Shown piece after piece: positions 1,020 through 50,103 of a stretch of DNA of 64,000 nt (position 1 is the stretch's first letter; each line of letters opens with the position of its first letter). This DNA comes from Winogradskyella aurantia (GTDB lineage: Bacteria; Bacteroidota; Bacteroidia; Flavobacteriales; Flavobacteriaceae), in assembly GCF_002266855.1 (NCBI RefSeq), contig NZ_NGJN01000003.1:62001-126000 (forward strand), written 5' to 3'. Both the position numbers and the translations under genes were made by a program. The notes under the pieces are model-generated. The model was given only the letters and a program-made list of their open reading frames with translations. It had not been told where the DNA came from and searched no databases.

Positions 1020-4000
1020 AACCGAACGAAAAAATAGAGAAAGAAGTACTTAAAATCTATGATACTTGGTTGCATAGTTATCTCCATGGTGATGTTAAAG
1101 TTTATGATTCTTTTTTGGATGATGATTACCATTTCATTGGCTCTGCCAAAAATGAAGAATTTTTAAACCGAAAGGACACCACAAAGTTCTTCGCAGATAC
1201 TGGCGACCAATTTGCGGGAAAAACTGAAATAAGAAACGAAACCATGTCCATAGAGCAATTTGGTGAACTTATTTTTATTACACATCTTTTAGATGGTTGG
1301 TTTCTAAATGAAAATGATTGGAATTATTATGCAAGATTTAGATTTACGAGTGTTCTAAAAAACACAAAAACCGGCTGGCGTTTTATCTATCAGCATTTTT
1401 CCATTCCAGATCCAAAAACCGAAGAAGGGGAAACTATCGGTTATGATAAGATAAATGATGAAAATCAGCAACTACGTGAAGCGATTACGCGTCGAACCTT
1501 TGAACTGGAAGCAAAAAATAGAGAGCTGGAAATTGAAGGTGCTTTAGAACGTATTCGAGCACAGGCAACAGCAATGACGGTCTCATCAGACCTTTTAGAT
1601 ATTGTGGTTACCATGCGCAATGAATTCATTAAACTTGGTCACGAAGCACACTATTTCTGGCATATGATGTGGTTGCAAAACACCTATGAAAAAGCGATGA
1701 CATCCGGTGATGGTTCCCGTATTGGTTTTGTAATGGAACTCCCCAGACATATACATGGCGATATTCCTAAGCTGGCAAAATGGGAAAAAAGTCAGAAGCC
1801 TACAGTCGTTTATACCATGAACATTGAAGAAGCCATTGCTTATGTGGACAAGATGATAGACTTAGGAAACTTCCAAAACATCGATCCTCAGGCCCCAAGT
1901 CATGATGACATTCGAGCCATTGGCGGCTTAACCTTTATCATGGCGCGCACGTCACACGGGGAAATTGGTTACAGTTTGCCTGGAGTCGTTGGGAATCCCC
2001 CACAGGAAGATTTGGCGATTTTAGTGCAATTTGCAGGCGCTTTCGATCTAGCGCACAGGCGTTTTTTAGACTTGCAGAAAGCAGAAGAACAAGCACGAGA
2101 AGTTGAAATAGAACTCGCTTTAGAACGCGTACGATCGCGTACCATGGCTATGCAACATAGTGACGAATTGCAAGAAGCCTCATTTTTATTAGATGAACAA
2201 GTGAGAGGGTTAGGCATTAAAACTTGGGGCTGTGCATTTCATATTTATGGAGAAAAAGAATCTACAGAATGGTTTGGTAATGAGAAAGGTGAGTTAAACA
2301 CTTACACTGTGCCGCGAATTGGTGTTTTCAAAGACTATTATGACAAAGGTCAGAATGGAGAAACCCTATTCATTCGAAAATTTGAAGGTGAGGAGTGCGT
2401 GGCGCACTATGAGTTTATGAGTACCCTGCCAGGAATTGGAGATGTTTTAAAACAACTTAAGAAAACCAACAAGGGGTTTCCTACCTTCCAAATTGATCAT
2501 GTGGTATACTTTAAATACGGTTACCTTCTGTTTATAACTCGAGAAGCCGTTCCTGAAGCCTATGACATTTTTAAACGTTTTGCGCATGTATTTGAGCAAA
2601 CATACACGCGATTCCTCGATCTTCAAAAAGTAGAAGAACAAGCACGGGAGGCTCAGATTGAGGCCGCTTTAGAACGTGTGCGTTCAACTTCCATGGCAAT
2701 GCATAAAAGTTCCGATCTAAAAAATGTAATAACTGCCGTTTTTGGGCAAATGGAAATTCTAGAAATTTCAACTGATTCTGCACAGATTATTATTCATGAA
2801 GAAGATAGTAAAGACCTTAATTTGTGGGCTTATTCTCCAGGTGAGGATTTTTCAGAACTGATTAATATCCCTTACCGAAAGAATCCAGTATTCGACGATT
2901 ATTGGAATAATTTAAATCGTGGACCATCTTCCATGAATTATACTAAGGTGCAAAAGGATGAGTTTTTCCAAAATGTATTTATGAGCGAACAGCTTCGCCA
3001 TATGTCAGAGGAACGAAAAAAGATGGTATTTGATGCCGCAGGAATGAATCGTGCTTTTGTGGCAATTGATAAGGTGGGAATATCGATTCATAACTATCGA
3101 GACATATTCTATTCTAAAGAAGTCGGCAATATTATAGTCAGATTGCTCGATGTGTTTAATCAGGCTTACACGCGTTTTTTAGACATTCAAAAAGCGGAAG
3201 CTCAGGCCAGGGAGGCTAAAATTGAGGCTGCATTGGAACGTGTTCGAAGTCGCTCTATGGCGATGCATAATTCGTCTGAACTTTCAGAGGTAGTAGATAC
3301 GCTGCAAAACGAATTCGCAAATTTAGATTTTAACCTGACGTTCTGTATTATTAACTTAATTGATGAGGAAGATAAAAGCAATACGGTGTGGGCAGCCAAT
3401 CCGGAAACCGGCAAAAAGCCGGAATCCTATTACATGAAGTTTGAAGACTATCCGTTTCATCAGGCCATGTGGGACGCCTGGAAAGCGCAAAAAAAACGCT
3501 TTGTCTATGTCATAGAAGGAGAAGAGAAAAAAATCTATGATAAGTATTTATACACGAAAACAGAATTTAGTCGTTTTCCTGAACACATTCAAAAAGCCAA
3601 TACAGACCTGGAAAGGTATGTGACCGGGTTCACTTTTTTCAAACATAGTGGTTTACAAACGGTAAGCGAAAATGATATAAATGATGAGGATTTAGCCATT
3701 CTGGAACGTTTTGGAAGAGTCTTTGAACAGGCCTATACCCGATTTCTGGATTTGGAAAAAGCAGAACAACAAGCCCGCGATGCGCAGATTAATCTAGCGG
3801 TAGAACGTGTAAGGGCAAAAGCACTGGCGATGCACAAATCAGAGGAAATAATGGGGGTTGTGGCTAAACTCAAAGAAGAAGTCATGGGATTAGATATCCC
3901 GGGTGTGGTGGCATCAACCATTTTTCTCGAAGCAGGTAACGGCCACATCAGAATGTGGGACCTCAGTTCACTGGAACAGTCTCATAAAGATTACCAGGCG

Positions 4001-25137: not shown

Positions 25138-25531
25138 GGGGTCGACTGGTTTTGACAGCGAGATTAATTAAATGGTAAGCACGTCGTGTAATGGTATTGA
25201 GACACGTAAAAGGCTAGACCAAACTTTAAACGGCGAGAATAACTACGCTTTAGCTGCGTAATCTGAATTATAGTAAGATTGTGCTAGTTCCTACTAGGTA
25301 GGAAGGCTAAATGTCTCCAGAAAGCCTTGGTTGGTGGCGTTCTATTTTGAGGCATCGTAAAAATTAACCAAGATTGGACAGTGCTTCGATGTCCTTTCGA
25401 GATTTAGAAGCTAAGCTGTAAGTAGGCTGTTTTTTGTCAGCTTACAGTCTAAAACCAAGAAAAAACTAAACGTGTAGAAAGCTCTTTGGTTACTTGTTTG
25501 GACGAGGGTTCGAATCCCTCCGACTCCACCA
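25138..25531 (+). ncRNA. ssrA: Transfer-messenger RNA (tmRNA)
   Basis: The 5' end GGGGTCGACTGG and 3' end CGACTCCACCA form the alanyl acceptor stem (GGGGUCG pairs with CGACUCC, CCA encoded). A T-arm GGTTCGAATCC lies at 25508-25518. The tag frame runs from GGC at 25232 to the TAA at 25259-25261 and encodes GENNYALAA after the tRNA-borne alanine. It rescues stalled ribosomes and marks the nascent chain for proteolysis. Length (394 bases) and one-piece form are normal. Confidence 0.97.
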
Positions 25532-43269: not shown

Positions 43270-43308
43270 TGCCCAAAGAATAGATTAATAGCAACATTTA
43301 GATTTAGG

Positions 43309-43339
43309 TTCCTGCTTTTTTTAAAGCAGGAATCTTTTT
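43309..43339 (+). terminator. Terminator of marR-yceI
   Basis: TTCCTGCTTT (43309-43318) pairs with AAAGCAGGAA (43323-43332) over a 4-base loop, followed by TCTTTTT. Confidence 0.88.
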
Positions 43340-43350
43340 CTTAAAATAGT

Positions 43351-43380
43351 TTGAAATAACTATTTTGCTTTCTATCTTTG
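43351..43380 (+). promoter_or_regulatory. Promoter of the trp operon
   Basis: TTG at 43351-43353 and TATCTTTG at 43373-43380 are separated by 19 bases, an exact match to the flavobacterial promoter consensus. The leader peptide ATG is 7 bases after the -7 box. Confidence 0.8.
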
Positions 43381-43387
43381 AAGCTCA

Positions 43388-43444
43388 ATGAAAACAAAAT
43401 TAAATCATACTTGGTGGTGGAACTTTACAGAACAATTCTCGTGA
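43388..43444 (+). CDS. trpL: Tryptophan leader peptide with three consecutive Trp codons
   Basis: An 18-residue frame, MKTKLNHTWWWNFTEQFS, runs from 43388 to a TGA at 43442-43444, with TGG TGG TGG at 43412-43420. It lies between an exact promoter match and a transcription terminator placed before trpE. Ribosome stalling at the Trp codons under tryptophan shortage would change RNA folding downstream. Such tiny Trp-rich frames are the hallmark of translation-coupled attenuation. Confidence 0.87.
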   Translation: MKTKLNHTWWWNFTEQFS

Positions 43445-43503
43445 AGTAACCCTAAGTATACTAAAATAAAATTAGGCTTGTCATTCACGACAAGCCTTTT
43501 TTA
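43439..43503 (+). promoter_or_regulatory. trp attenuator: terminator and competing antiterminator
   Basis: AGGCTTGTC (43474-43482) and GACAAGCCT (43489-43497) form a 9-base stem with a 6-base loop and a T tract, an intrinsic terminator. TCGTGAA at 43439-43445, which overlaps the leader stop codon, can pair with TTCACGA at 43484-43490, the terminator loop and first bases of its right arm. A ribosome at the stop codon would mask this segment and allow termination; one stalled on the Trp codons would leave it free. This pairing is inferred from complementarity. Confidence 0.75.
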
Positions 43504-43514
43504 ATTGATGATAA

Positions 43515-44915
43515 ATGAACATATTTAGCCTTCAGACACATTATAAAAAAATCCTGGCAGATACCATTACTCCTGTAAGCATCTATTTAAAGATTAGGGA
43601 TAAATATCCAAATAGTATATTGCTAGAGAGTAGCGATTATCACGCTAATGATAACAGTTTTTCATACATCTGTTGCAATGCTATTGCGTCGATTAAAGTA
43701 GAAAATGATTCCATTTACCAAAGCTATCCAGACGGGAGCTTTGATATAAGTCACACCAAAAATATCAATGTTACAGAGGAAATTCACAAGTTTAGCAAGC
43801 GCTTTAAGGTTAATACAAATACTGATTTTAAATTTATTCACAATGGGATATTTGGTTATACCGCTTATGATGCTGTAAAGTATTTTGAAGACATTTCTAT
43901 TTCTAAAAAGGAAGATTCTGTTGAAATTCCAGATATTTATTATGCTGTATACCAAAATATTATTGCAATTAATCATTTTAAAAACGAAGCCTACATTTTT
44001 GCGCATTGCTACGATACTGAAAATAATATTGATAGTATTCTACAGCTTATACAAACCAAGCAATATGCGACGTATAATTTTGATACCTCAACAGAAATTT
44101 CGTCCAACTTAAGCGATAAGGCCTACAAGGAACATGTGGAGTTAGCTAAAAAACATTGTGGTCGCGGTGATGTGTTCCAATTGGTTCTTTCAAAACGATT
44201 CTCACAAGGTTTCAGTGGTGACGAATTCAATGTATATAGAGCGCTCAGAAGTATAAATCCGTCGCCATACCTCTTCTACTTTGATTACGGAAATTTTAAG
44301 ATATTTGGAAGTTCGCCAGAAGCACAATTGGTTGTCACGGAAGGAAAAGCTGAAATTCATCCCATTGCAGGCACATTTAAACGCACAGGGAACGATTTAA
44401 AAGATGCACAATTAGCAGAAGCCTTAATTAAGGATGATAAGGAAAATAGCGAACATGTCATGTTGGTCGATCTCGCCAGAAACGATTTAAGCCGACATGG
44501 TAGCAAAGTTACCGTTGAAAATTATCGTGAAGTCCAATTTTTTTCCCATGTCATTCACTTGGTAAGTAAAGTCACGGGGGAAATTCATCCAAGTACCGAA
44601 ACCATGCAGGTTGTGGCAGATACCTTTCCCGCTGGAACTTTAAGTGGCGCTCCAAAACATAGGGCTATGCAATTGATAGAACAATATGAAAAAACAAGCC
44701 GTGGCTATTATGGCGGTGCTATTGGATTCATGGACTTCGATGGTAACTTTAACCATGCTATAATGATCCGTACGTTTTTAAGTAAGAACCATAAATTATT
44801 TTGGCAAGCTGGTGCGGGCTTGGTTGCAAAATCAAATCCAGAAGACGAGCTCCAAGAAGTCTATAATAAACTAGGGGCATTAACCAAGGCTATTGAACAA
44901 GCAAAAGATATTTGA
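43515..44915 (+). CDS. trpE: Anthranilate synthase component I
   Basis: This 466-residue protein has the chorismate-binding fold. The tryptophan feedback motif LLES is at residues 36-39. Catalytic-region motifs include LVLSKRFSQGF, PSPYLFYFDYGNFKIFGSSPE, HPIAGTFKRTG, DLARNDLSRHG and FPAGTLSGAPKHRAMQLI. It makes anthranilate from chorismate with ammonia supplied by TrpG. It is the first structural gene of the operon, 12 bases after the attenuator T tract. Confidence 0.96.
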   Translation: MNIFSLQTHYKKILADTITPVSIYLKIRDKYPNSILLESSDYHANDNSFSYICCNAIASIKVENDSIYQSYPDGSFDISHTKNINVTEEIHKFSKRFKVNTNTDFKFIHNGIFGYTAYDAVKYFEDISISKKEDSVEIPDIYYAVYQNIIAINHFKNEAYIFAHCYDTENNIDSILQLIQTKQYATYNFDTSTEISSNLSDKAYKEHVELAKKHCGRGDVFQLVLSKRFSQGFSGDEFNVYRALRSINPSPYLFYFDYGNFKIFGSSPEAQLVVTEGKAEIHPIAGTFKRTGNDLKDAQLAEALIKDDKENSEHVMLVDLARNDLSRHGSKVTVENYREVQFFSHVIHLVSKVTGEIHPSTETMQVVADTFPAGTLSGAPKHRAMQLIEQYEKTSRGYYGGAIGFMDFDGNFNHAIMIRTFLSKNHKLFWQAGAGLVAKSNPEDELQEVYNKLGALTKAIEQAKDI

Positions 44916-45054: not shown

Positions 45055-45621
45055 ATGAAAAAAGTATTAGTTATAGATAATTATGATAGCTTCACCTATA
45101 ATCTGGTGCACTATTTAGAAGATTTAAATTGTGAGGTTACCGTTAAGCGCAATGACAAACTTACACTTGACGAGGTTGAAGCCTTTGAGAAGATTGTTTT
45201 GTCTCCAGGTCCTGGTATACCAGACGAAGCGGGTCTGTTAAAGTCAATCATTTCAAAATACGCCCCCACAAAAAGCATCCTCGGTGTTTGTTTAGGACAA
45301 CAAGCCATTGGTGAGGTTTTTGGCGGGACTTTAGAAAATCTTGAAACTGTATACCATGGCGTTTCAACAGAAATAACTGTCACTGCAGAGGATGAGACCT
45401 TGTTCAATGGATTGAATAAAACTTTTGAAGTAGGGCGTTACCACTCCTGGGTAGTAAACACCAATTTACCCCATTGTCTGGAAGCAACCTCTTTTGACTC
45501 TAACGGACAAATTATGTCCTTGAGGCATAAAACATATGATGTTAAAGGCGTACAATATCATCCCGAGTCGGTCTTAACGCCAAATGGAAAACAAATTTTA
45601 GCAAATTGGATTAAATATTAA
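45055..45621 (+). CDS. trpG: Anthranilate synthase component II (glutamine amidotransferase)
   Basis: This 188-residue class I amidotransferase has the nucleophile Cys79 (GVCLGQQAIGE) and the His169/Glu171 pair (VQYHPESVLTPNG), plus the oxyanion segment LSPGPGIPDEAG. It supplies ammonia to TrpE. In many bacteria the same subunit also serves PabB. A REP-like hairpin ends 6 bases before its start. Confidence 0.95.
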   Translation: MKKVLVIDNYDSFTYNLVHYLEDLNCEVTVKRNDKLTLDEVEAFEKIVLSPGPGIPDEAGLLKSIISKYAPTKSILGVCLGQQAIGEVFGGTLENLETVYHGVSTEITVTAEDETLFNGLNKTFEVGRYHSWVVNTNLPHCLEATSFDSNGQIMSLRHKTYDVKGVQYHPESVLTPNGKQILANWIKY

Positions 45622-45623
45622 GC

Positions 45624-46616
45624 ATGAAGGAGATTCTCAATAGACTCATCAATCAGGAAAGTATTTCTAGTGAAGAAGCTAAAAATGTTTTGGTCAATAT
45701 CTCAAAGGGCGAATACAACGAAAGTCAGATTGCATCGTTCCTAACAGTTTATATGATGCGAAGCATAACCATAGAAGAACTTCGTGGGTTTAGGGATGCC
45801 TTATTGGAATTATGTATCCCAGTTGAACTAGACGGGTATAATACTATAGATTTATGTGGAACAGGTGGTGATGGAAAAGATACGTTCAATATTTCGACCC
45901 TTTCTGCTTTTGTTGCTGCCGGTGCAGGCATCCAAGTGACCAAACATGGTAATTATGGGGTTTCCTCAGCATGTGGGTCTTCAAATGTTATGGAATACCT
46001 CGGTATAAAATTCACTAACAATATTGAATTCTTAAAACGCAGTTTGGATGAAACGGGAATTTGTGTACTTCATGCGCCATTATTTCATCCCGCTATGAAG
46101 AATGTAGCCCCTATCAGAAGAGCACTTGGTGTTAAGACCTTTTTTAATATGTTAGGACCCATGGTAAATCCCGCATTTCCCAAAAATCAGATGGTGGGCG
46201 TGTTTAACTTAGAGTTGCTAAGGCTTTATGGTTATTTATATCAAGAAACAGATAAAAACTATGCCGTAGTTCATGCTTTAGATGGCTACGATGAAATTTC
46301 TTTAACAGGAAAAACAAAAGTTATCTCCAATAATGCCGAAACTTTAATTGACCCTAGCGATTTAGGGGTACCACAAATAGAACAATCAGCCATCTTCGGA
46401 GGGCATACAGTAAAACAAGCTGCCGATTTATTTATGGAAATTATAAATGGTAAGGGTACAGAAGCACAAAACAATGTAGTATGTGCCAATGCCGGATTAG
46501 CCATTTCTACCACAAAACAAATAGCTCATAAGGATGGATTTGAAATGGCCAAAGCGTCTCTCTTGAGCGGAAACGCAAAAAAGAGTTTAGATAAACTAAT
46601 TGAATTAAGTAGATGA
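45624..46616 (+). CDS. trpD: Anthranilate phosphoribosyltransferase
   Basis: This 330-residue protein has the PRPP-binding loop LCGTGGDGKDTFNIST, then KHGNYGVSSACGSSNVME, FFNMLGPMVNP and the nucleoside-binding region GYDEISLTG. It joins anthranilate and PRPP. It starts 2 bases after trpG and overlaps trpC by 4 bases. Confidence 0.96.
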   Translation: MKEILNRLINQESISSEEAKNVLVNISKGEYNESQIASFLTVYMMRSITIEELRGFRDALLELCIPVELDGYNTIDLCGTGGDGKDTFNISTLSAFVAAGAGIQVTKHGNYGVSSACGSSNVMEYLGIKFTNNIEFLKRSLDETGICVLHAPLFHPAMKNVAPIRRALGVKTFFNMLGPMVNPAFPKNQMVGVFNLELLRLYGYLYQETDKNYAVVHALDGYDEISLTGKTKVISNNAETLIDPSDLGVPQIEQSAIFGGHTVKQAADLFMEIINGKGTEAQNNVVCANAGLAISTTKQIAHKDGFEMAKASLLSGNAKKSLDKLIELSR

Positions 46617-47398
46617 ATATCCTAGATAAAATAGTAATTGACAAACGTAAGGAAGTGAATCTAAAAAAAGAATTAATTCCTATTGAAACCTATGAGCAAT
46701 TACCCTATTTTGAAGCAAGCACAACCTCATTATCAAAACGCCTACAAGCCAGCACAACCGGAATTATAGCAGAGTTTAAACGAAAGTCGCCTTCAAAATC
46801 AATTATAAATGATAAGGCCTTAGTAGAAGACGTGGCCATTGGTTATGAAAAGGCTGGGGTTTGTGGTATGTCTATCTTAACGGACGAAGTTTATTTCGGC
46901 GGCAGTATGGACGATTTAATTACCGCCAAAGAACATTGCCGTTTACCATTATTGCGTAAAGAATTTATTATCGATGAATATCAAATCATAGAAGCAAAAG
47001 CCATTGGTGCAGATGCAATCCTGCTTATCGCAGCAATTTTAACCAAAACTCAGATTAAGCAATTTTCTGAATTGGCGAAAAGTTTAAATCTGGATGTCCT
47101 CTTGGAAGTTCACAACGCGGAAGAATTACACAAATCCATAATGCCATCATTAGATATGCTCGGAGTTAACAATAGGGATCTTAAAACCTTTGACGTGAGT
47201 TTAGAAACCTCTAAAACTCTAAGTCAATTAATTCCTGACGACTTTGTAAAAATTTCAGAAAGTGGGATTAGTTCTATCGACGCCATTAAATCGTTGCAAC
47301 CCTATGGCTATAAAGGTTTTCTTATAGGTGAGAACTTTATGAAGACGGATAATCCCGGAAAGGCGGCCACAACATTTATAAAAGAATTAAAAGAATGA
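46613..47398 (+). CDS. trpC: Indole-3-glycerol-phosphate synthase
   Basis: This 261-residue TIM barrel shows IIAEFKRKSPSKSII, LTDEVYFGGSMDDL, LLRKEFIIDEYQI, LLEVHNAEEL, GVNNRDLKTF and SESGISS, the ordered catalytic and phosphate-binding segments of TrpC. It closes the indole ring of carboxyphenylaminodeoxyribulose phosphate. It overlaps trpD and trpF by 4 bases each (ATGA). Confidence 0.96.
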   Translation: MNILDKIVIDKRKEVNLKKELIPIETYEQLPYFEASTTSLSKRLQASTTGIIAEFKRKSPSKSIINDKALVEDVAIGYEKAGVCGMSILTDEVYFGGSMDDLITAKEHCRLPLLRKEFIIDEYQIIEAKAIGADAILLIAAILTKTQIKQFSELAKSLNLDVLLEVHNAEELHKSIMPSLDMLGVNNRDLKTFDVSLETSKTLSQLIPDDFVKISESGISSIDAIKSLQPYGYKGFLIGENFMKTDNPGKAATTFIKELKE

Positions 47399-48084
47399 AA
47401 CTAAAGGTGTGCGGTCTAAAATATAATAATAACATAGAAGCTGTTGCCAAACTGCAACCAGATTATATGGGCTTTATATTTTATGAGAAATCATCGCGAT
47501 ACTTCGTTGGGGAAATGCCAAAAGAAATCCTTTTTTACAACAAAGTAGGTGTTTTTGTAGATGCCGACATATCATATATCTTAAATAAGGTAAAACAACA
47601 CAATTTCAAAACGATACAGTTGCATGGTAGTGAATCGGCCAACTACTGTGCTGAGTTGAGATTCGAGCTACATTTAAAGGATGAGCAAGACCGCTGGCAA
47701 TCCGATCAGTGGCGTAAAGGTGAATGGGAAGCTCCAAATTGGGAAGTAATAAAGGCCTTTAGTATTAAGGATCGTTTTGATTTCTCGGTACTACAACCTT
47801 ATGAAGCCCTTGTGGATTATTTTTTATTTGACACAAAAGGAAAACTTCCAGGTGGTAATGGCTATACATTTAATTGGGGCGTTTTAAATCAATACCCCTC
47901 CACTAAACCCTATTTTTTAAGTGGTGGCATTGGTCTTAGCGAATTGGACAAAATCAAGGAATTTAAAAACAATCCTGCTTCAAAACACTGTTATGCCATT
48001 GACGTAAATAGTAAATTCGAAATCAAGCCTGGATTAAAAGATATTAATGCATTAGAAAAATTTAAAGATGAGTTACAACATTAA
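47395..48084 (+). CDS. trpF: Phosphoribosylanthranilate isomerase with a small insertion
   Basis: This 229-residue TIM barrel has the catalytic Cys6 (KVCGLKY), [21 protein letters not shown], the catalytic Asp in [12 protein letters not shown] and LSGGIGL. It is longer than usual for TrpF because of a hydrophilic stretch at about residues 89-115, between the strand holding HGSES and the one holding VIKAFSI. That stretch is rich in Asp, Glu, Trp and Lys. The active-site motifs are intact, so function is expected. It overlaps trpB by 17 bases. Confidence 0.93.
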
Positions 48085-49249
48085 TGACAACGGTTATTAT
48101 GGAGAATTTGGCGGAGCCTACATTCCGGAGATGCTTTATCCTAATATTGAGGAGTTACGCCAAAATTATTTAAAAATAACAGCAGAATCTGATTTTAAAG
48201 AAGAATTTCATCAGTTATTAAGGGACTATGTTGGGAGACCTTCACCACTGTATTTAGCGAAACGGCTTTCCGAAAAATACAACACTAAAATTTATCTCAA
48301 ACGCGAGGACCTTAACCATACAGGAGCGCATAAGATCAATAACACCATAGGACAAATTTTATTAGCCAAACGATTGGGTAAAACACGTATAATAGCTGAA
48401 ACCGGTGCAGGACAGCATGGTGTTGCAACGGCCACAGTCTGCGCCTTAATGGGCATCGAGTGTGTAGTCTATATGGGGGAAATAGACATTGCCAGACAGG
48501 CACCCAATGTAGCCCGTATGAAAATGCTGGGTGCTAAGGTTGTTCCTGCATTATCTGGTAGTCGTACCCTAAAAGATGCCACTAATGAAGCCATGCGCGA
48601 TTGGATTAACAATCCTGTAGATACGCATTACATCGTTGGTAGTGTAGTTGGACCACATCCATTTCCAGACATGGTGGCACGTTTTCAAGCGGTGGTTTCT
48701 GAAGAAATCAAAACCCAATTATTGGAAAAAGAAGGCACTGAAAATCCTGATTATTTAATTGCCTGTGTTGGCGGAGGAAGCAATGCTGCCGGAACCTATT
48801 ACCATTATCTAGACAATGAAGCTGTTAAGATTATTGCTGTTGAAGCAGCTGGAAAAGGCATAGATTCTGGTGAAAGTGCAGCAACTTCAGTGTTAGGAAA
48901 AGAGGGTATCATTCACGGAAGTAAAACCTTGCTAATGCAAACTAATGATGGTCAAATTACGGAACCCTATTCCATTTCGGCCGGACTTGATTACCCAGGT
49001 GTGGGGCCTATGCACGCTAATTTATACAGGACAGGAAGAGCAGAATTTATTGCCATAACCGATGATGAAGCTATGACGGCCGGATTAGAATTATCACAGC
49101 TTGAAGGTATTATTCCAGCCATAGAAACCTCTCACGCCCTTGCGGTTTTTGAGTATAAAACGTTTAAACCAAACGATATCATTGTAGTGAACCTGTCTGG
49201 ACGCGGGGATAAAGATTTACAGAACTATATTGATTATTTCGGTCTTTAG
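48068..49249 (+). CDS. trpB: Tryptophan synthase beta chain
   Basis: This 393-residue PLP enzyme shows [24 protein letters not shown], the PLP lysine in [26 protein letters not shown], the phosphate-binding [10 protein letters not shown] and C-terminal [10 protein letters not shown]. It condenses indole with serine. The first codons overlap the end of trpF. The stop lies in the loop of a small hairpin (49238-49255). Confidence 0.97.
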
Positions 49250-49324
49250 ACCGAATGCTGAACTCGTTTCAGTATATCATAATTAAAAAGGAAGTTGAAT
49301 TAAAAAGATTCCCACCCTTGTGGG
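49238..49324 (+). repeat. Hairpin cluster between trpB and trpA (REP-like)
   Basis: Three hairpins lie in a row. TTCGGTC / GACCGAA is at 49238-49255. ATGCTGAA / TTTCAGTAT is at 49255-49275. CCCAC CCTT GTGGG is at 49311-49324. The last, with its AATTAAAAAGATT context, repeats the element before trpG. The stretch makes this the only wide gap among the junctions from trpG to trpA. Confidence 0.65.
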
Positions 49325-49332
49325 CAGTGAAC

Positions 49333-50103
49333 ATGAACCGAATAAACCAAAAACTAGAGGAAGACAAAAAACTTCTATCCATATATTTTACTGCAGGCTA
49401 TCCCAATATTGATGATACTGTTTCAATTATTCATAACCTAGAAAACAGTGGTGTAGATATGATAGAGATTGGGTTGCCATTTAGTGACCCTTTAGCCGAT
49501 GGCCCAACCATACAAGACAGCTCAACAAAAGCCTTGCGCAATGGAATGACCAGCGAAGTACTTTTTCAGCAACTAAAGGATATCCGATCTTCCGTTTCAA
49601 TACCACTTATCATCATGGGCTACTTTAACCCTATTCTTCAATATGGAGTTGAAGCATTTTGTAAAAAATGCCAGGACGTTGGAATTGATGGTTTAATCAT
49701 TCCAGATTTGCCCGTAGATGTATACCATTTAAAATACAAGAGCATATTTGACTCTTATGGACTAATTAATGTATTTTTAATAACTCCACAGACCTCAGAG
49801 GAACGCATACGATACATTGATTCTGTTTCTAATGGATTCATTTACATGGTGAGTTCTGCAAGTACCACAGGCGCTACATCTGGCTTTGGAGATGTACAGA
49901 CCAACTATTTTAAACGTATTGAAGACATGCATCTAAAGAATCCTCAAATTGTAGGCTTTGGGATTTCAAATCACGACACCTTTAAACAAGCAACTCAATA
50001 TGCAAAAGGTGCCATTATAGGATCTGCATTTATTAAATACCTTACCCATAAGGGAGTCGATAATCTTGAAAGGTTTATAGCCCCAATACTGGCTGAAAAT
50101 TAA
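49333..50103 (+). CDS. trpA: Tryptophan synthase alpha chain
   Basis: The start is the ATG at 49333 (256 residues), which matches the family N-terminus MNRINQKLEEDKKLLSIYF; the frame is open upstream to 49255 only because it runs through the REP-like repeat. Motifs are TAGYPNIDDT, the catalytic Glu in DMIEIGLPFSDPLADGPTI, GLIIPDLPVD, MVSSASTTG and GFGISNHDTF. It cleaves indoleglycerol phosphate to indole, which is channelled to TrpB. Confidence 0.96.
   Translation: MNRINQKLEEDKKLLSIYFTAGYPNIDDTVSIIHNLENSGVDMIEIGLPFSDPLADGPTIQDSSTKALRNGMTSEVLFQQLKDIRSSVSIPLIIMGYFNPILQYGVEAFCKKCQDVGIDGLIIPDLPVDVYHLKYKSIFDSYGLINVFLITPQTSEERIRYIDSVSNGFIYMVSSASTTGATSGFGDVQTNYFKRIEDMHLKNPQIVGFGISNHDTFKQATQYAKGAIIGSAFIKYLTHKGVDNLERFIAPILAEN

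Follow-up and report, generated by a model that had tools for sequence, protein, structure and literature searches.

What controls the tryptophan operon of Winogradskyella aurantia? The question is raised by an unannotated leader just before trpE in the window, that is, the whole 64,000-nucleotide stretch of DNA analysed here. On the forward strand, trpE (43515-44915), the first gene that the leader would regulate, is followed at 45055-50103 by trpG (45055), trpD (45624), trpC (46613), trpF (47395), trpB (48068) and trpA (49255), giving the order trpEGDCFBA. The trpE product matches NCBIfam TIGR00564 (E 4.8e-129, 431 bits, with the model cut-off at 517.7), an assignment that its neighbours support, while trpF was assigned by best matches that lie below their cut-offs. 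Nine Winogradskyella at 83-86% identity top the list of relatives of this trpE, a list that may omit records very near the window. Elsewhere in the window there is a tmRNA gene at 25138-25531 (Rfam RF00023, 149 bits).

Upstream of trpE, all the parts of an attenuator appear in order on the forward strand. The first is a predicted promoter of the Bacteroidota sigma-A type (43350-43380), with TTTG at 43350-43353, a 19-nt spacer and the box TATCTTTG at 43373-43380. An account of Flavobacterium psychrophilum places the TAnnTTTG box at -12 to -5 (PMC9723704), so transcription would start near 43385, about 3 nt 5' of the leader ATG, and with a predicted 5' UTR of only about 3 nt the leader would be nearly leaderless. 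The leader ORF itself (43388-43444) has 18 codons followed by TGA at 43442-43444 and encodes MKTKLNHTWWWNFTEQFS, in which a run of three Trp codons (WWW, 43412-43420) is the putative sensor. An intrinsic terminator follows at 43474-43502, made of the hairpin AGGCTTGTCATTCACGACAAGCCT (43474-43497) and a run of six T (43497-43502) that begins at the last base of the hairpin; it was also detected by an independent terminator search. In addition, TCGTGAA at 43439-43445 is perfectly complementary over 7 bp to TTCACGA at 43484-43490. The initial annotation had listed the promoter, the 18-codon leader with its three Trp codons, the terminator before trpE and the seven-base pairing, and each of these was found where it had been placed. 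The pattern CGTGA-N25-55-TCACGNCNAG has a single match in the whole genome, at the trp leader, and 0 control matches. A second strong hairpin resembling an intrinsic terminator lies at 43306-43335, just 5' of the promoter and after the preceding gene.

Taken with the folding and comparisons below, these parts make it very probable (we would put it at about 0.92) that the element is a classic ribosome-mediated trp transcription attenuator, of the Rfam type Bacteroid-trp (RF01692). Folding of 43388-43503, a check suggested in the initial annotation, gave a strongly structured RNA at -35.9 kcal/mol, compared with -15.5 +/- 2.7 for shuffled sequences (z -7.65; 0 of 200 shuffles as low). In the fold, segment 1 (43407-43432) engages in a two-part hairpin with segment 2: the Trp-codon segment forms the outer stem (43407-43418 with 43449-43459), and the inner stem (43422-43432 with 43436-43447) sequesters the seven-base core. 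Segment 2 (43439-43455), the 5' strand of the predicted antiterminator, overlaps the stop codon. Its 3' partner, segment 3 (43472-43490), comprises the left arm of the terminator, the loop and the first bases of the right arm. The antiterminator of the window would thus span about 16 bp (43439-43455 with 43472-43490), extending past the 7 bp, which form its outer end; the inner block CCUAA/UUAGG emerges first. Judged by these folds, the leader can form the mutually exclusive structures 1:2, 2:3 and 3:4 from its four segments, which is the E. coli scheme. The element had been described earlier as a switch with two structures, simpler than the four-segment leader of enteric bacteria. What stands of that description is the trp attenuator, its Trp-codon leader and the stop codon lying on the antiterminator strand; the simplicity does not, because the 1:2 hairpin is present and the antiterminator has about 16 bp, not 7.

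How would such a leader sense tryptophan? We folded it stage by stage, assuming that the ribosome hides 13 nt past the start of the A-site codon. Without a ribosome, 1:2 and 3:4 form together; with the ribosome stalled at the Trp codons and segment 3 just emerged, the antiterminator is the best structure (-11.5 kcal/mol); with the ribosome at the stop codon, the terminator forms alone. Once the ribosome has stalled at the Trp codons, the equilibrium still favours the terminator over the antiterminator (-16.8 versus -12.1 kcal/mol), so that the choice of read-through must be kinetic. We envision that RNA polymerase, with a ribosome close behind, begins transcription some 3 nt 5' of the leader AUG. 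When charged tRNA-Trp is present, the ribosome would pass the three UGG codons and reach the UGA on the antiterminator strand, where it would cover segment 2, letting the terminator form and transcription stop before trpE. When tryptophan is short, the ribosome would stall on the UGG codons and break the 1:2 hairpin; the freed segment 2 would then pair with the emerging segment 3 before the right arm of the terminator is complete, allowing read-through. If no ribosome is engaged, 1:2 and 3:4 would both form and transcription would stop. In all this, the parts, their spacing, their conservation and their complementarity between families come from sequence, folding and comparison; the start site, the stalling, the timing and the response to tryptophan we infer.

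The same arrangement recurs throughout the relatives examined. We found trpE in 181 of 199 genomes of the Flavobacteriaceae (E 1e-120 or less); for the 70 most similar of these 181 loci, window included, we inspected the DNA 5' of the gene. A Trp-codon run is present in 70 of 70, as WWW (TGGTGGTGG) in 67 and as WWC (TGGTGGTGT/C) in 3. In a separate named set, which shares species with the first, the run was found at 76 of 80 loci, and one of the four exceptions had only 162 upstream bases. Measurements were made on 69 leaders of the set of 70, L006 being cut by a contig end. They start with ATG in 66 cases and TTG in 3 (L007, L040, L047), and their peptides mostly read M-x-T-x-L-N-N/H-T-W-W-W, becoming variable after WWW. 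A TAnnTTTG box lies 5' of the leader in 69 of 69, preceded at 17-21 nt by TTG in 66 of 69; L067 is one that lacks this -33 element. Counted from the nearest TAnnTTTG box, predicted 5' UTRs range from 0 to 36 nt (median 13 nt). Up to 15 of the 69 leaders have one no longer than 5 nt; L065 is doubtful among these, being better fitted by a second box further up.

Spacing is equally constrained. The start of the core lies 27, 28 or 29 nt downstream of the first Trp codon (in 3, 40 and 26 of the 69 leaders, respectively). The core occurs in all three reading frames across these leaders, and whatever the frame, the leader stop falls between -12 and +7 nt relative to the core start in 69 of 69, most commonly at +2 (26 leaders, window included), +7 (24) and -7 (12). 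A stop codon kept beside the core despite changes of frame is what a ribosome-masking mechanism would need. The window leader, its spacing and its conservation, as read from these comparisons, are beyond chance.

Does the core pairing itself covary? The alignment used here holds 67 sequences, since it additionally omits L014 and L061, whose terminators escaped the search expression even though they are visible by eye. For the 7-bp core, 97.4% of cells are paired and 0 of 7 pairs are altered on both sides, because the core hardly varies: across 67 genomes from 66 genera, TCGTGA and TCACGA show almost no change. This invariance neither supports nor refutes the pairing. The covariation by which the initial annotation proposed to judge it is thus absent within the family, and it was found between families, as set out below. 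In the terminator stem, compensated changes affect 2 of 9 pairs among the 67 relatives.

So strict a core could also be explained if the leader acted in trans as well, through its terminated RNA or through the peptide, as has been reported for peTrpL of Sinorhizobium meliloti (PMC7298713, where action of the leader RNA or peptide is described). We regard this as improbable: pairing alone would permit covariation where TCGTGA and TCACGA are near-constant, but the core is already constrained by its own alternative pairings, and the peptide is variable after WWW.

Compensation between segments was sought by swapping them, since segment 2 is not well aligned in the MAFFT family alignment, on which RNAalifold found the terminator alone. 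In these tests, the pairing energies of own segments are compared with those of segments swapped between leaders. Within the family they gave no signal: of 5000 permutations per pairing, 608 reached the observed value for 1:2 and 3437 did so for 2:3. A second set drew on 15 families of the phylum and comprised 19 leaders, several sharing a family, of which the 18 other than the window were hand-picked from loci already known to carry a Trp leader. Here the mean 2:3 energy is -19.05 kcal/mol for own segments versus -12.5 for swapped ones, and for 1:2 it is -13.2 versus -10.45; neither was reached in 10,000 permutations. Controls with a reversed segment were not flat (143 of 10,000 for 2:3 and 125 of 10,000 for 1:2), so that part of the signal, above all for 1:2, is likely due to composition. 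Among the nine order-level leaders (seven families), 2:3 and 1:2 each gave 0 of 10,000, with reversed controls at 3986 and 47. We take the cross-family complementarity of 2:3 to be firm and that of 1:2 to be partly helped by composition; by this comparison both sequences have turned over with compensation across families of the phylum. In leaders retrieved around the model matches described below, the antiterminator strands differ from one another and still match, as CCGTGA/TCACGG, GTCGTAG/CTGCGAC, GAGAAGC/GCTTCTC and TGATTCGTCGG/CTGATGAATCA (G-U allowed).

These results bear on the original idea of a two-structure switch, in which the stop-codon segment merely competes with the terminator and the protector hairpin 1:2 is irrelevant. 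That the 7-bp core is nearly invariant fits such a switch, as does the weakness of 1:2 in the ten family members where it is weakest, at only -1.7 to -2.9 kcal/mol. In the window, however, the 1:2 duplex is strong (-7.9 kcal/mol), RF01692 has a hairpin of this region as its consensus structure, and 1:2 covaries across the 19 leaders to the extent given above, so we consider a switch without the protector very unlikely. As for a plain constitutive terminator behind a chance short ORF, a terminator is indeed present at the locus, but with a Trp-codon run at fixed spacing in 70 of 70 relatives and complementarity that holds across families, this is hardly credible. The four-segment attenuator remains our reading of the locus.

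How far does the device extend beyond this family? Among the 30 best-scoring PF04715 (trpE-type) matches of the phylum, a non-random sample that may pool trpE and paralogues, 23 genes are preceded by WWW leaders, 21 of them outside the Flavobacteriaceae and two inside. We also built a model, R1, with the window's own leader among the aligned sequences. It matched 105 of 246 genomes of the order at E 0.01 or less. This figure does not count leaders, since L199 and L200, 2 of the 18 inspected places outside the window's genome, are ordinary sequence. A match to the core pattern occurs in 63 of the same 246 genomes, in many by chance, and its backward control also matches many genomes. Twenty stretches around R1 matches (18 from the order and 2 from the window's genome) comprise 12 trp leaders, 4 aspartokinase leaders and 4 non-leaders; judged by eye from the translation, 11 of the 12 trp leaders precede trpE-like genes and one a trpB-like gene. 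In the last case (L191:1467-1618, reverse strand), a WWR leader and attenuator matching RF01692 at 58.3 bits lie directly before the trpB-like gene, not trpE. At L202 and L206, the partner of segment 2 is apparently the left arm of the terminator (CAAAGTCTT/AAGACTTTG), in the manner of E. coli, whereas in the window the pairing extends past the loop to the right arm.

The window's own genome was also searched for further attenuators built on this core. R1 gave seven matches there at E up to 10, led by the trp leader (8.3e-20). The match at 0.064 comes from the opposite strand of the trp leader itself, two others (L207 and L208, at 0.01 and 0.08) are ordinary terminators, and the remaining three are weaker (E 0.8 to 6).

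Such an aspartokinase leader stands in a different family of the order, where 9 of 59 genomes of one genus (that of the query included) match the core, terminator and start of the aspartokinase gene near full-length. Eight of these nine loci are readable; they encode MI(L/V)SNLKKxKKQ(N/Y)LRxxS and share the core TCGTGAG. Their terminators are of the CTTGTCATCACGACAAG type, a string from which two of them deviate by one base. The example at L197:1328-1464 (forward strand) carries four Lys codons before the aspartokinase gene, others being L193, L196, L203, L274-L276 and L278-L282; L197 shares AACTTACGnnnAACGTCGTGAG with L069, a trp leader of the window's family. At the one locus folded, a downstream GGUUAGA is paired with UCUAACC, which lies just 5' of the Lys codons. 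The nearest NCBIfam model to the aspartokinase, at one locus, is "lysine-sensitive aspartokinase 3", below its cut-off. The other 50 genomes of the genus have no full-length match, so the Lys leader is either not general there or has diverged. Rfam gave no match at E up to 0.05 in three of the loci (L193, L196, L203), and in the literature searched on lysine leader-peptide attenuation and aspartokinase, titles and opening lines of abstracts name no Bacteroidota case. A Lys leader before aspartokinase may be new, a lead and not proof. We tentatively suggest, at somewhat less than even odds, that in Flavobacteriales the core, TCGTGA with a TCACGACAAG-type terminator behind it, serves as a module re-aimed by changing codons, as in this Lys/aspartokinase pair. 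If so, lysine shortage would turn on lysine synthesis through the same device.

The trp leader itself has been catalogued. Bacteroid-trp (RF01692) is listed as "Bacteroidete tryptophan peptide leader RNA", a probable cis-regulatory RNA, in Table 1 of Weinberg et al. 2010 (PMC2864571). The window matches it over model positions 1-131 of 131 at 47.6 bits (E 6.2e-5), 1.4 bits short of the cut-off of 49, and because of this a default Rfam scan is silent on the leader; no other trp leader family was found by scanning the window with Rfam. By all comparisons made, this unannotated leader is a standard trp attenuator that the default scan misses by those 1.4 bits. In the family, 62 of 100 genomes (the window's included) have a match above the cut-off and 93 of 100 one at E 10 or less, chance matches included; for the seven best, the distance to the trpE downstream is 33-86 nt. 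Nine WWW leaders before trpE in other families of the order (L189, L190, L192, L194, L195, L198, L201, L204, L205) score below the cut-off (L189, 44.3 bits) or are unmatched at E 0.05 (the other eight), so RF01692 covers only part of the trp leaders.

In the literature, Bacteroid-trp is reported as conserved 5' of the trp operon of F. psychrophilum (PMC6414381), whose amino-acid operons are said to give "strong clues" for leader-peptide attenuation (PMC9723704). This is another genus of the window's own family, Flavobacteriaceae, and the report speaks of clues rather than of a test of mechanism. A transcript map of Bacteroides thetaiotaomicron notes short ORFs resembling leader peptides in long 5' UTRs (PMC7366714). 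The main text of Naville and Gautheret 2010 contains no words beginning with Bacteroid, Flavobacteri or Cytophag. Attenuators were reportedly predicted in Bacteroidetes/Chlorobi too (Vitreschak et al. 2004). To call attenuation little studied in this phylum, as the initial annotation did, is fair for experiments and less so otherwise, given the RF01692 entry and the clues reported for F. psychrophilum (PMC9723704). No direct test of ribosome-polymerase coupling in Bacteroidota was found in the literature searched. Flavobacteria are described as lacking Shine-Dalgarno sequences (PMC9723704), and with some leaders predicted to be nearly leaderless, they would offer a compact test bed for this coupling.

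How does the element compare with known systems? Like RF01692, it stands before trp genes of Bacteroidota, has its leader Trp codons within the 1:2 hairpin, starts its terminator in the same way (AGGCUUGUC) and folds the same region that forms the consensus structure. The RF01692 model, unlike the element, stops at the left arm of the terminator, so it lacks the antiterminator pairing and a complete terminator. The trp attenuators of Corynebacterium and Streptomyces, as described in PMC1262725, are similar in having two or three Trp codons and complementary triples conserved in antiterminator and terminator, and their terminators differ in being GC-rich with other conserved letters (gGCC-rGCy-GGCC). 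The window element thus represents a kind already catalogued as RF01692 and reported before the F. psychrophilum trp operon. The present analysis adds the antiterminator, which has turned over across the phylum and is still complementary, the stop codon kept beside it in any frame, and the spread of WWW leaders. In E. coli, the trpL leader has Trp codons, 1:2, 2:3 and 3:4 structures and a terminator before trpE. The window shares each element of this logic, and it differs in its run of three Trp codons, its Bacteroidota promoter, its nearly leaderless start and an antiterminator strand that overlaps the stop codon and extends through the terminator loop.
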